Positions 15,686-19,632 of a stretch of 30,671 bases of DNA are shown here, one piece after another. The stretch comes from a virus, in the IMG/VR virus record IMGVR_UViG_3300032213_001035, positions 1-30,671 of that record, one strand, 5' to 3'. Below the pieces are notes generated by a model that searched no databases, had not been told where the DNA came from, and worked only from the letters and a program-made list of their open reading frames with translations. The stretch's first letter is position 1; the number at the start of each line of letters is the position of its first letter. The position numbers and the translations under genes are program-made.

Positions 15686-15693
15686 CAAAGTTA
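15686..15693 (-). promoter_or_regulatory. Possible -7 box TAACTTTG before portal
   Basis: Minus-strand TAACTTTG matches TAnnTTTG and lies 22 nt before the portal ATG, overlapping the last codon of the large terminase. The region upstream has no clear TTG at the proper distance. It may give extra transcription of the head genes, or may be a chance match in AT-rich sequence. Confidence 0.35.
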
Positions 15694-17046
15694 TGATAAA
15701 TTTTTAAACATTGATTGAATAAATATTGATAATCCAGCTAAACAATCTGGCGCATCATCATTTTTATTTTTACCTTCTTTGCTAAAAGATATCACATTTT
15801 GCAGAAATAATTGGCTTTGCTGATCATCTTTTTTAAGGAATTTAAATCTGTTCATGATCCATGCGGATTGCATGATTATTCGCGTGATCTTATTTTGTGT
15901 ATTATGAACCTGTAAAATTCTGGTTTTCGTCATCGTTTGTAAATGCCGGCTGAACATGGCCCCCATTGCATTGGATTCGACACGGCAATAATTCACGTTC
16001 CATTTGTTTAATAATTCAGCTGCTAATGGAATGCTTATATCGGTATTATCACGCGTAAAAAGATAATCTACAATGTAAATTTGACCCTGGATTATTTGAG
16101 CAATTGCAAGCGCTGTATAATCATTACCTTGATCCGAAACATCAATGTAACCAATGGCGCCATCGATCCCGCGTTTATGCGCATCCATTAATTCAGCATA
16201 ATCAACATAATGCAATTCATTAAATAAACGTCCTTTTACATCAACGGGTTGTTGCATGTATTCCGCCGCCCATATTTCCGGCGCTGTTCTTTTTTGCTTC
16301 TCTAAATATTCCGTGGTTGTCATAACGGTTTCACAAAATGATTGGCCCCGTTCATCCAATGCCGGAATGATTATTGACTTATCATAAATTGATTGATCTA
16401 TATTTCGACCGATAATATCATTCAATGACCAACGCGTTCCAATATCTATGCGGGCGCATCCCGTTTCGAATCTGGAATCATGCGTTGATTCTTTCCATTG
16501 GATTATTCGATCGTTCACGGTGTCACTTAATGCGTCTTCTATTCCGCGGTAAAGATCATCAGTTATTGCCACATTAGAGGCCCCGAACCCAATGATTGTT
16601 CCGCCAACACCCGCACCGAAATAACCAACTTGTTTGCTGCTATTAGTATTCCATCCTTGCAAATTGGCCTTATCTTCTGAAAGTTTGACATCTGGAAAAA
16701 TGTGATGAAATTTATCGCTTTTAACAATGGCGCGAACATCGTAACTAAATTTTAAATATAGTGATGCCGTACATGTGTTACGCATTATTGATTTATCCGG
16801 GTTTTTGCCAATGGTCCATGCGCAAAATAATGACGTTATGTAACTTTTTCCGGCCCTTGGCGGCATGGAAACGCTCAAAGAATTTATTTTTTTTTCCTCA
16901 ATTTCTTGAAAGGCATGCGCAATTTCTTCCAGGAATGGACGTTCACGAAAGAAAACAGAATCATAATAACAACAAAAAGTCCAAAATTCTCTTCGCGATA
17001 GTTCCGCGAGAAGCATTTGTTTAACCGCTGTTTTTTTATCATTCAT
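15691..17046 (-). CDS. terL: Terminase large subunit, 451 aa
   Basis: ATPase domain: Walker A MPPRAGKSY (61-69), Walker B AITDD (160-164) with catalytic acidic residues, and the coupling-type segment IDIGTRWSLND. RNase H-like nuclease domain from about residue 295: first Asp in GYIDVSDQGNDYTA (D302), Glu in CRVESNAMGAMF (E357) and final Asp in NDDAPDCLAGL (D434). This motor cuts concatemeric DNA and pumps it through the portal. All catalytic residues are in place and the length is normal. It overlaps the small-subunit gene by 8 nt, starting at ATG 17046. Confidence 0.95.
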   Translation of the reverse strand: MNDKKTAVKQMLLAELSRREFWTFCCYYDSVFFRERPFLEEIAHAFQEIEEKKINSLSVSMPPRAGKSYITSLFCAWTIGKNPDKSIMRNTCTASLYLKFSYDVRAIVKSDKFHHIFPDVKLSEDKANLQGWNTNSSKQVGYFGAGVGGTIIGFGASNVAITDDLYRGIEDALSDTVNDRIIQWKESTHDSRFETGCARIDIGTRWSLNDIIGRNIDQSIYDKSIIIPALDERGQSFCETVMTTTEYLEKQKRTAPEIWAAEYMQQPVDVKGRLFNELHYVDYAELMDAHKRGIDGAIGYIDVSDQGNDYTALAIAQIIQGQIYIVDYLFTRDNTDISIPLAAELLNKWNVNYCRVESNAMGAMFSRHLQTMTKTRILQVHNTQNKITRIIMQSAWIMNRFKFLKKDDQQSQLFLQNVISFSKEGKNKNDDAPDCLAGLSIFIQSMFKNLS

Positions 17047-17425
17047 CCGATCTTAATAATTCTTTAATTTCTTCAGTGGTGAAATTACTTAAATCTGGCG
17101 TCACGTGATGTTGTTTTGTTTCCATAAATGTTGTTGACAATCGGCGCCTTTCATCATCGTTTACGATCAGCTTCATTAATGCCATCTGTAACGTGGCGTT
17201 CTCGCTTTTATACCATTTATTACGCAAAGATACTTTGACGTTCATTCTATTTATGTGCAATTTATCATTTAGTTCGTTAAAATCGTTAGAATCAACAGGA
17301 AAATGATCGTAAAAGCAAGGTTTCGAACAAGGCAAATAGGTTATGACATCTTCGATAAAAAACAACTTATGTTTATCGATCGATTCTATTGCCATTTCTT
17401 TTAGTTTTTTCGTATTGTATGCCAT
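17039..17425 (-). CDS. terS: Terminase small subunit, 128 aa
   Basis: Contains FFIEDVITYLPCSKPCFYDHFP (central part of an HTH-like DNA-binding region) followed by KVSLRNKWYKSENATLQMAL, both characteristic of small terminases in Bacteroidota siphophages. The short C-terminal tail TPDLSNFTTEEIKELL is the likely large-subunit contact. It recognises phage DNA and recruits the large subunit. The gene ends 8 nt inside terL and begins 5 nt after the methyltransferase stop, so all share one transcript. Confidence 0.85.
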   Translation of the reverse strand: MAYNTKKLKEMAIESIDKHKLFFIEDVITYLPCSKPCFYDHFPVDSNDFNELNDKLHINRMNVKVSLRNKWYKSENATLQMALMKLIVNDDERRRLSTTFMETKQHHVTPDLSNFTTEEIKELLRSDE

Positions 17426-17430
17426 GATTT

Positions 17431-18174
17431 TTATTCATTTGAGCAAAATATATAACTATTTGGCGGATAAAATGGAAATTCTTCTAACTCAAGTGGTATT
17501 TTACGCGATGATTTAACAATTTTAAACATCTTTTGTAAGCGCTCAATTACTTCTACGTAGGTTTTTATTCTTTTATCCATGTCAAATGAATATTCGAATA
17601 CCATCTTTTTAATCCCCATATTATCATTTAATTCATTTAATATAGGTATCTCCGCTCCTTCTATGTTCATTTTAATACAATTGTAACCGTCTTTTATTAG
17701 TGTATTAAAACCCAAGGCTTTTATTGCTGTGATTTTTACGTTCTTTTTTGTGCTGCTGTTTAGATAATTACCGTACAAAGTATGTCTTCTAAATGATGCC
17801 GGGTTCGTACTTTCATAGAAATTGAGCGTTTTACCGTCCTGGCTTAATGGTACAATTGCGGCTCGAATAATTTCAACCTTAGAACCTACGTTATTTAACT
17901 GAATATTTTCTTTAATCATTTCGCAATTATCCAATTGGGGTTCGTATGCCCTAACATAACAACCTTTCAATGCAGCATAACAAGTGAAAGCGCCTATATT
18001 AGCGCCTAAATCAAGCCATTTTTCACCGGCGTTTATAGTAAATGGTAACTTGGGTTTTTGATAAGCTTTTTTGATCCAAGTTTCATCAACGCTTTTGATG
18101 TCGCTTGAACCTTCTCTAACGGCAAATTTTCCGGTGATCTGTTTATTTTTCGGTATGTAAATTACTTTATTCAT
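17431..18174 (-). CDS. FkbM-type SAM-dependent methyltransferase, 247 aa
   Basis: Rossmann-type methyltransferase: motif I WLDLGANIGAFT (53-64), the acidic end of strand 2 in VRAYEPQ (E78), and the family signature CIKMNIEGAEIPIL (166-179), where FkbM proteins have a KxDxEGAE-like motif; here Asn170 stands in place of the usual Asp. FkbM enzymes mostly O-methylate hydroxyl groups of small molecules and sugars. Here the gene is wedged between a TET/JBP-like dioxygenase (8-nt overlap) and the terminase genes. That context suggests the target is modified phage DNA, for example the hydroxyl made by the oxygenase. The substrate is inference; methylation of a sugar or surface glycan is the alternative. 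Confidence 0.8.
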   Translation of the reverse strand: MNKVIYIPKNKQITGKFAVREGSSDIKSVDETWIKKAYQKPKLPFTINAGEKWLDLGANIGAFTCYAALKGCYVRAYEPQLDNCEMIKENIQLNNVGSKVEIIRAAIVPLSQDGKTLNFYESTNPASFRRHTLYGNYLNSSTKKNVKITAIKALGFNTLIKDGYNCIKMNIEGAEIPILNELNDNMGIKKMVFEYSFDMDKRIKTYVEVIERLQKMFKIVKSSRKIPLELEEFPFYPPNSYIFCSNE

Positions 18175-19033
18175 CTGTTTTAGTTTTATTTTTATTCATT
18201 TTTCTGATTAAATTAAATTTATTAGGATCAGCCCGCCAATTACTTTCTATTTTATCACGTACTTTTTTAATCCTTTCTAATTCTGCTTCGTATGGGTAGC
18301 AATTTTTCATAGTGGCCAGGCTGTAAAACACACATGAAGCGCGGAAACCTTTATCACTTATTTGTTTAATTGGTGTAACACCGTGAATAATATTTTGGCC
18401 GTTAAATAATATCAATGCGCCATCCGATTGTTCGAACCCAATGTTATATTCCGGGCAAATTAAATGGCCCCCAATGACGTCTTCTTTTATGATCAGTACA
18501 TTTGAATAAACATCTTTAAAATTACCCGTGTCACGGTGATATTTGATTGCGTGATTGACATTGAAATTAATCGTTGTAAATGGCGTGTCTTTTATAATGT
18601 AATCCTGTTCCACATTCGAACGTACTATTTGTAAATTTAGTTCATGCTGTGCGGGTAATAAATCTTTATAAACGTCATCTATGATTTTACTAAATTCAAG
18701 TATTTCATAAGCGATTTTTCGTTGTGTTTTAGTATCGGCTGTTATTCTGCAATAATCGTTTCGATACGGGACCCTTGGCAATGAACCGAAAATTGCTGAT
18801 TGTGTTGGAATCCCATTCGACCGGGCGCTTTTAGAATATTTTGTATTCTTTACTAATCGTTTAACTTTGGCAATTTGATCAGCTGTTAAAATTTTATAAA
18901 TAATAATAACTTCACCATTTTCTTGAATGATAGTGTCATTTTTTATGATCCGATCACATTCAGTTTTTTTCGGTATTTTTTTCAGATAATGTTCGAAATT
19001 ACCATCTAATTTTTGTGCGTTAATTATTTCCAT
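18167..19033 (-). CDS. TET/JBP-like 2OG-Fe(II) dioxygenase, 288 aa
   Basis: The C-terminal half shows the double-stranded beta-helix iron site: YHRDTGNF gives HxD (H166, D168), then IGGHLICPEYNIGF, then LFNGQNIIHGVTPI with the distal His217, and the 2OG-binding Arg231 in KGFRASCVFYS. The N-terminal part has FGSLPRVPYRNDYCRITAD, also typical of phage members of the TET/JBP superfamily. Such enzymes hydroxylate the methyl group of thymine or 5-methylcytosine in DNA. I chose ATG 19033, two nt after the ParB-like stop; a TTG at 19057 also exists. No phage cytosine methylase is visible, so a JBP-like action on thymine is the simpler guess. The base target is inferred. Confidence 0.8.
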   Translation of the reverse strand: MEIINAQKLDGNFEHYLKKIPKKTECDRIIKNDTIIQENGEVIIIYKILTADQIAKVKRLVKNTKYSKSARSNGIPTQSAIFGSLPRVPYRNDYCRITADTKTQRKIAYEILEFSKIIDDVYKDLLPAQHELNLQIVRSNVEQDYIIKDTPFTTINFNVNHAIKYHRDTGNFKDVYSNVLIIKEDVIGGHLICPEYNIGFEQSDGALILFNGQNIIHGVTPIKQISDKGFRASCVFYSLATMKNCYPYEAELERIKKVRDKIESNWRADPNKFNLIRKMNKNKTKTDE

Positions 19034-19035
19034 AA

Positions 19036-19632
19036 TCAGCAATTTAGGATCATCCAAATTATGGCATCGCTATTTGTTTCACATTCTTGTTCTTTTTTAA
19101 TGTGATTTAGTTTATCAACAACTTTGTCGTAATCTTCGTGTTTGATATATATTTCGAATTTCTTAACATCAGCGTTTAAATATTTTAAACTGATATCGTC
19201 AATGTGTTCATAATTCTGATTATTTGTTACGATGTCTTCAGCTTCATCAAAATCATCATTTATTGATAATTGCCATGTGTCTAACCCCCAATCACCCAAT
19301 AATTCAGCATCCCATTCATTCGCAAGTAAATCCCAATCCCATTCACCAAAGCCAACATTATCTTTAATGATAAATTCCGCTTTCTGTTCTTCTGTTAAAT
19401 TATCGGCTTTTATGATTGGTATAACTTTAATTCCGGCTTCTTTTATGGCTTTATATCGCATGTTACCGCCCAAAATGGTCATGTTTTCATCAACCACAAT
19501 TGGCCGGATATCTAACATTTCTGGAAATTCTTTTATTGACTTGACTAATTTCTTGAATTTATCGTCTTTTATGATCCTGGGGTTGTTTTCTTTCGGCTTT
19601 ATATCCGCTGTTTTTACTCTAATGATGTTCAT
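19036..19632 (-). CDS. ParB-like nuclease-fold protein, 198 aa
   Basis: Residues 1-95 match the ParB/sulfiredoxin fold: ADIKPKENNPRIIKDDKF, SIKEFPEMLDIRPIVVDEN, then the signature ILGGNMRYKAIKEAGIKVIP (GGxxRxxA), followed by LTEEQKAEFIIKDNVGFGEWDW. There is no HTH of true ParB partition proteins; instead residues 130-198 form an acidic linker and a small alpha/beta domain with a Cys at the end. Phage ParB-like proteins often pair with DNA-modifying enzymes, and this one lies directly before a TET/JBP-like dioxygenase. A DNA-targeting or ATP/CTP-using role is inference; plasmid-type partition is unlikely without a ParA. Confidence 0.85.
   Translation of the reverse strand: MNIIRVKTADIKPKENNPRIIKDDKFKKLVKSIKEFPEMLDIRPIVVDENMTILGGNMRYKAIKEAGIKVIPIIKADNLTEEQKAEFIIKDNVGFGEWDWDLLANEWDAELLGDWGLDTWQLSINDDFDEAEDIVTNNQNYEHIDDISLKYLNADVKKFEIYIKHEDYDKVVDKLNHIKKEQECETNSDAIIWMILNC

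Follow-up and report, generated by a model that had tools for sequence, protein, structure and literature searches.

Do a ParB-like gene, a dioxygenase gene and a methyltransferase gene, packed together directly upstream of the terminase genes of a virus, make up a module that chemically alters the DNA to be packaged? The question is raised by a 30,671-base virus record from IMG/VR, analysed over its whole length (the window), which may represent an incomplete genome. Five genes lie head to tail on its minus strand: a ParB-like gene (19036..19632), a TET/JBP-type 2OG-Fe(II) dioxygenase gene (TET; 18167..19033), an FkbM-family SAM-dependent methyltransferase gene (FkbM; 17431..18174), a putative terminase small subunit gene (terS-like; 17039..17425) and the terminase large subunit gene (terL; 15691..17046). 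In that order, the ParB-like gene and TET lie 2 nt apart, TET and FkbM overlap by 8 nt, FkbM and the terS-like gene lie 5 nt apart, and the terS-like gene and terL again overlap by 8 nt, in agreement with an earlier note on this DNA, which had described three tightly packed genes just before terS-terL, without naming their strand, and had pointed out sequence motifs in each, all of which we found. The TET reading frame could also begin at a TTG at 19057, a start that is not kept in relatives, which use the ATG at 19033. Comparison with the closest relative, L002, gave dN/dS values of ~0.05-0.07 for the ParB-like, TET and FkbM genes, with synonymous sites near saturation, and such purifying selection identifies the three as functional genes rather than chance open reading frames.

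The packaging genes themselves are recognised with differing clarity. The 451-residue terL product matches Pfam Terminase-T7_RNaseH-like (5.8e-11) and PHROG 38 (3e-74); the 128-residue terS-like protein, which matched no Pfam or PHROG family, is named from its position between FkbM and terL. Every match of the window terL among GenBank phages is less than 60% identical, the nearest being that of MT835752.1, a human faecal "Bacteriophage sp." record that carries no annotation (43% identity).

The assignment of the 288-residue dioxygenase to the DNA-oxidising TET/JBP enzymes, proposed in the earlier note, is borne out by several lines of evidence. The protein scores 68.6 bits against Pfam Tet_JBP (5e-19; curated cut-off 34.9), and the residues expected to bind Fe(II) (the HxD...H motif, H166, D168 and H217) and 2-oxoglutarate (R231) stand exactly where the note had placed them and are invariant among 28 diverse viral TETs. 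Searched against the PDB, a profile of these 28 sequences found human TET2 (7e-10). An AlphaFold (AF2) model, built from an alignment restricted to viral contigs, with GenBank rows left out, reached a pLDDT of 91.1 and a pTM of 0.84, and its Foldseek ranks 1-26 were taken by CcTet, TET2, NgTET1 and CMD1, followed by AlkB homologues and FTO, all of them enzymes whose substrates are nucleic-acid bases. Since TET-type DNA enzymes occupy the top 26 places, a protein or small-molecule hydroxylase, a match that the earlier note would have taken as refutation, can be ruled out. By family and fold, therefore, the assignment as a DNA-base TET/JBP enzyme is supported, and base oxidation is its predicted activity. 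Genes of this kind are easily overlooked: the labels given to TET/JBP genes by PHROG 6059 and by public database entries include "queuine tRNA-ribosyltransferase", "SNF2 DNA repair protein" and "DnaJ chaperone", phage records with such labels being, among others, NC_023701.1, NC_020857.1, MN698246.1 and MG450654.1. These look like misannotations spread by transfer, which hide TET from keyword searches.

The ParB-like protein (198 residues) contains the motif GGNMRYKA and a ParB_N domain (31.8 bits, 1.5e-7; cut-off 26.3) and has no DNA-methylase domain; G56, R59 and A62 of its GxxRxxA signature are invariant, and its relatives are 57-65% identical. It also matches PHROG 498 (5e-29) and PHROG 620 (1e-27), the former over positions 33-173 of a 633-position family labelled DNA methyltransferase. 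The PHROG 498 proteins likewise couple a related ParB-N domain to a base modifier, but in them the DNA methylase is fused, whereas here the partners, TET and FkbM, are separate genes. A ParB-TET pair beside the terminase is common even without FkbM: ParB was present in 71 of 75 TET loci, and terL lay within 2.6 kb in 46 of the 51 with enough sequence. A general pattern in which a ParB domain and an exchangeable base modifier adjoin the terminase is thus a plausible prediction. One TET neighbourhood (L063) encodes, downstream of TET and between a terS-like gene and terL, a 389-residue DNA-methylase-like protein with a TSPPY motif, by sequence likeness a candidate for another base modifier.

The 247-residue methyltransferase is a clear member of its family, matching Pfam PF05050 (Methyltransf_21) at 41.2 bits (2.4e-10; cut-off 22.7). 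Across 27 sequences, D55, G57 and G61 of the SAM-binding glycine-rich loop (LDLGANIG in the window) and I171, E172, G173 and E175 of the [DN]xEGxE signature (MNIEGAE) are invariant, and the proteins of relatives are 78-86% identical to that of the window. The structural model (pLDDT 86.7) has a class I methyltransferase fold of generic type only. The alignment contains no invariant cysteine (the best two columns reach 89%), and this speaks against the usual mechanism of C5-pyrimidine chemistry; no DPPY/NPPY motif was seen. Known members of the FkbM family are O-methyltransferases, and on the strength of its family, together with the exchange of neighbouring genes described below, this enzyme is predicted to methylate a hydroxyl. 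We know of no FkbM enzyme that acts on DNA, which counts against the module proposed here, as does the generic character of the modelled fold. When 84,980 bacterial and archaeal species genomes were searched for this FkbM family, only two weak matches were returned, so the subfamily appears to be essentially viral.

The earlier note had also called for a search for the gene set in other genomes, and there it proved to recur widely, in viral contigs and GenBank phages alike. Five close viral contigs keep the order ParB-TET-FkbM. To avoid circularity, IMG/VR was searched with FkbM alone, and the best 80 of the 328 matching stretches were examined: TET directly adjoins FkbM in 79, the contig of the 80th ending inside FkbM, so that adjacency held in 79/79 testable loci. 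Within these best 80, ParB lies upstream in 73, and FkbM mostly precedes TET, the order being ParB-FkbM-TET in 72 and FkbM-TET in 4 more. Approached from the other side, 7 of 32 TET-bearing records have FkbM, each in exactly one copy and beside TET. Among isolates in GenBank, the Prochlorococcus cyanophages MED4-117 and MED4-184/P-HS2 show ParB-FkbM-TET-terS-terL, and the Pelagibacter phage HTVC112P shows ParB-TET-FkbM. This recurrence rules out a chance or unique neighbourhood, and with it the absence of the gene order from relatives, which the note had named as a second ground for refutation. The suggestion that the pairing of TET/JBP with FkbM could be new held up only in part: it is not unique to this phage and is already present in GenBank isolates, mostly misannotated or unannotated, with FkbM and ParB already annotated in HTVC112P; on the other hand, a limited search of the literature on FkbM with JBP, ParB or phage DNA modification or dioxygenases found no description of it, and an earlier one may exist. 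TET-based hypermodification of phage DNA is itself already known, and the FkbM-TET pair is a real, widespread and undercharacterised variant of it.

What FkbM does beside TET is suggested by the genes that can take its place. In the TET clade of HTVC112P and the Nonlabens phage P12024L, the neighbours of TET include TET-associated glycosyltransferases (TAGT), amino acid:DNA transferases (ADDT) and FkbM. Among 241 fetched TET loci, FkbM was found in 93, a glycosyltransferase (GT) in 45, ADDT in 15, GT and ADDT together in 1, and none of these in 87; FkbM never occurred together with GT or ADDT (0 of 241), and the FkbM-bearing records tested contained no TAGT. This exclusivity partly reflects shared ancestry. 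The histories of the two genes nevertheless differ. Between L091 and MED4-117, the FkbM proteins share 46% identity, whereas the TETs share only 28% over 135 residues; the L091 TET instead shares 45% identity with the P12024L enzyme, and in P12024L a TAGT glycosyltransferase stands in the place taken by FkbM in L091. When trees were built for 31 phages that encode TET as well as FkbM, L091 and its group joined the HTVC112P/P12024L clade for TET, with strong support, and the MED4-like group for FkbM (99% SH-aLRT). On a TET tree labelled by slot content, a quick tree with long branches, the FkbM state required 5 changes, at least 4 of them being forced by strong branches. The disagreement between the trees therefore indicates that FkbM joined at least 4 TET lineages separately. 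Exclusivity and tree conflict together argue that FkbM, GT and ADDT are equivalent, each adding a group to the hydroxyl made by TET. FkbM thus fills the slot of enzymes that tailor hydroxymethyl bases, which strengthens the earlier idea that it caps the new hydroxyl; a tailoring transferase adjacent to TET is a mark of hypermodification systems, and here FkbM provides it. Judged from genomic context, tailoring of the TET-made hydroxyl is the most likely role of FkbM. Against this stand the 87 loci with no recognised tailoring partner in the fetched stretch, which imply that TET alone is often enough.

Other occupants of these neighbourhoods deserve mention. The loci L150, L151, L155, L159 and L161 belong to a TET clade with varied neighbours, ADDT among them; a class II glutamine-amidotransferase-like protein lies near TET in L151 and L161, and an unassigned 246-residue protein in L155, which suggests further tailoring chemistries. 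Many loci, including L103 and its neighbours, encode a protein of ~151 residues without a Pfam match between TET and TAGT. Downstream of TET in L101 and L124 is a protein of 271-276 residues, alignable over ~114 residues with a TAGT-like protein and, in L101, with no Pfam match of its own; it is probably a divergent glycosyltransferase.

Which base is oxidised can be approached through the genes that accompany TET. Characterised phage TETs oxidise 5-methylcytosine (5mC) produced by a phage C5 methylase, and PF00145, the family of such methylases, had no match in the window, L006, MED4-117, MED4-184 or HTVC112P. Among 22 further FkbM-bearing records, 3 did have one, 2 of the 3 matches being partial, and in some FkbM-bearing phages cytosine may be the substrate. 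N4/N6 and Dam-type methylases (PF01555, PF02086) gave no match in the window, MED4-117 or HTVC112P, and a thymidylate-synthase-like gene was absent from the window and the isolates tested, with one match among 38 records. Because all these genes are absent, thymine is the simplest substrate; on gene content it is the likeliest one, and 5mC made by the host may be another. Given these absences from the window and the isolates tested, a thymidylate-synthase-like route to hydroxymethyl bases and phage m6A as the substrate of TET were both rejected.

We judge it reasonably probable that the cassette serves to hypermodify DNA after replication, as a module in which TET hydroxylates, FkbM methylates and the protected DNA is packaged. 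TET would hydroxylate the 5-methyl group of a pyrimidine in phage DNA, most likely thymine, and FkbM would then use SAM to methylate the resulting hydroxyl, so that a 5-methoxymethyl pyrimidine is formed; by the thymine route, T would become 5-hydroxymethyluracil and then 5-methoxymethyluracil. The ParB-like protein would probably bind or load the enzymes on DNA. Because the module lies next to the terminase genes in a late operon, the DNA that enters the capsid and then the next host would be modified, and protected from restriction there. We infer that FkbM acts on DNA, that the oxidised base is thymine, that the product is a methyl ether, that ParB plays the role given above and that protection is the benefit. 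The more specific claim, that TET and then FkbM turn a base in DNA into 5-methoxymethyluracil (or -cytosine), which would be a base not described before, the first with a methyl-ether cap and the work of the first DNA-acting FkbM, and that it is common in freshwater and marine phages including those of Prochlorococcus and Pelagibacter, is put forward tentatively, at a little less than even confidence.

The two enzymes might also act in the opposite order, FkbM methylating the base (for example at an exocyclic amine or a ring position) in place of the missing DNA methylase and TET then oxidising the product. The general lack of recognised DNA methylases in FkbM-bearing phages would fit this, as would the ParB-FkbM-TET order in 72 of the best 80 of 328 loci and the contact of the profiles with tRNA/rRNA uracil-C5 methyltransferases at the SAM-binding region; yet FkbM lacks the invariant cysteine and the DPPY/NPPY motif, its family is one of O-methyltransferases, and the enzymes with which it is exchanged, glycosyltransferases and amino-acid transferases, work on bases that are already hydroxylated, which leaves this order unlikely, if less so than the other alternatives. 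Close behind, and unlikely too, is methylation by FkbM of a larger group, a sugar or an amino acid, put on the hydroxymethyl base by a host enzyme or an unrecognised phage enzyme. Sugar hydroxyls are methylated by known enzymes of the FkbM and RfbT families, and in the Pfam scan the RfbT family matched the window FkbM just below its cut-off; against this, Pfam scans of the window contained no glycosyltransferase, TAGT was absent from the FkbM-bearing records tested, and no fetched locus combined FkbM with GT or ADDT.

The remaining alternatives move one of the two activities away from phage DNA. FkbM could act on RNA, protein or a glycan, its link with TET being a habit of operon structure or a shared late role, and phage FkbM genes without a TET neighbour probably exist, for instance among matches in Streptomyces phages; the subfamily found here, however, adjoins TET in every testable locus, joined at least 4 TET lineages and gave only two weak matches in the 84,980 species genomes, so that we regard a non-DNA target as improbable. 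TET, for its part, could be directed at host-made 5mC or at host DNA or RNA during takeover, without any hypermodification of phage DNA. That neither the window nor the isolates encode a recognised C5 methylase would agree with this, but the linkage of TET to the terminase does not, nor does the swapping of its partner for transferases whose substrates are hydroxymethylated DNA bases, and we consider it very improbable.

If capping of a TET-made hydroxyl by FkbM is correct, a methyl ether would join sugar, amino-acid and carbamoyl caps as a new end product on hydroxymethyl bases, and FkbM enzymes would gain a nucleic-acid substrate. More broadly, the gene position next to phage TET is a slot in which tailoring enzymes are interchangeable. 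Under a methyl cap, hydroxymethyl bases could escape nucleases that depend on modification, and oxidised bases could be marked by using the enzyme pair as a tool. The existence of cultured phages with the FkbM-TET pair makes the prediction testable.

The proposed cassette has clear parallels among known systems. In the base J pathway, the TET/JBP enzymes JBP1/2 oxidise thymine in DNA and a glucosyltransferase then caps the hydroxyl, the same succession of oxidation and capping by a second enzyme; base J, however, carries a glucose cap, is eukaryotic and involves no ParB, and thymine in the phage cassette is a prediction. Close too are phages such as P12024L that combine TET with TAGT (PF12851 + PF20691), having the same TET/JBP superfamily and a tailoring enzyme directly downstream, but here the FkbM methyltransferase replaces the glycosyltransferase. 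ADDT (PF18724), of thymine hypermodification, also tailors a hydroxymethyl pyrimidine and occupies the position following TET in related loci, although the group it attaches is an amino acid instead of methyl, and it never accompanied FkbM in the loci studied here. A precedent for the recruitment of a natural-product tailoring family to hydroxymethyl bases is the 5hmC carbamoyltransferase, whose action on the hydroxyl of such a base is experimentally proven (PMC8670742); in those phages the carbamoyl group is placed on 5hmC derived from a thymidylate-synthase-like enzyme, not TET, and the chemistry is proven, whereas that of the FkbM-TET pair is predicted.
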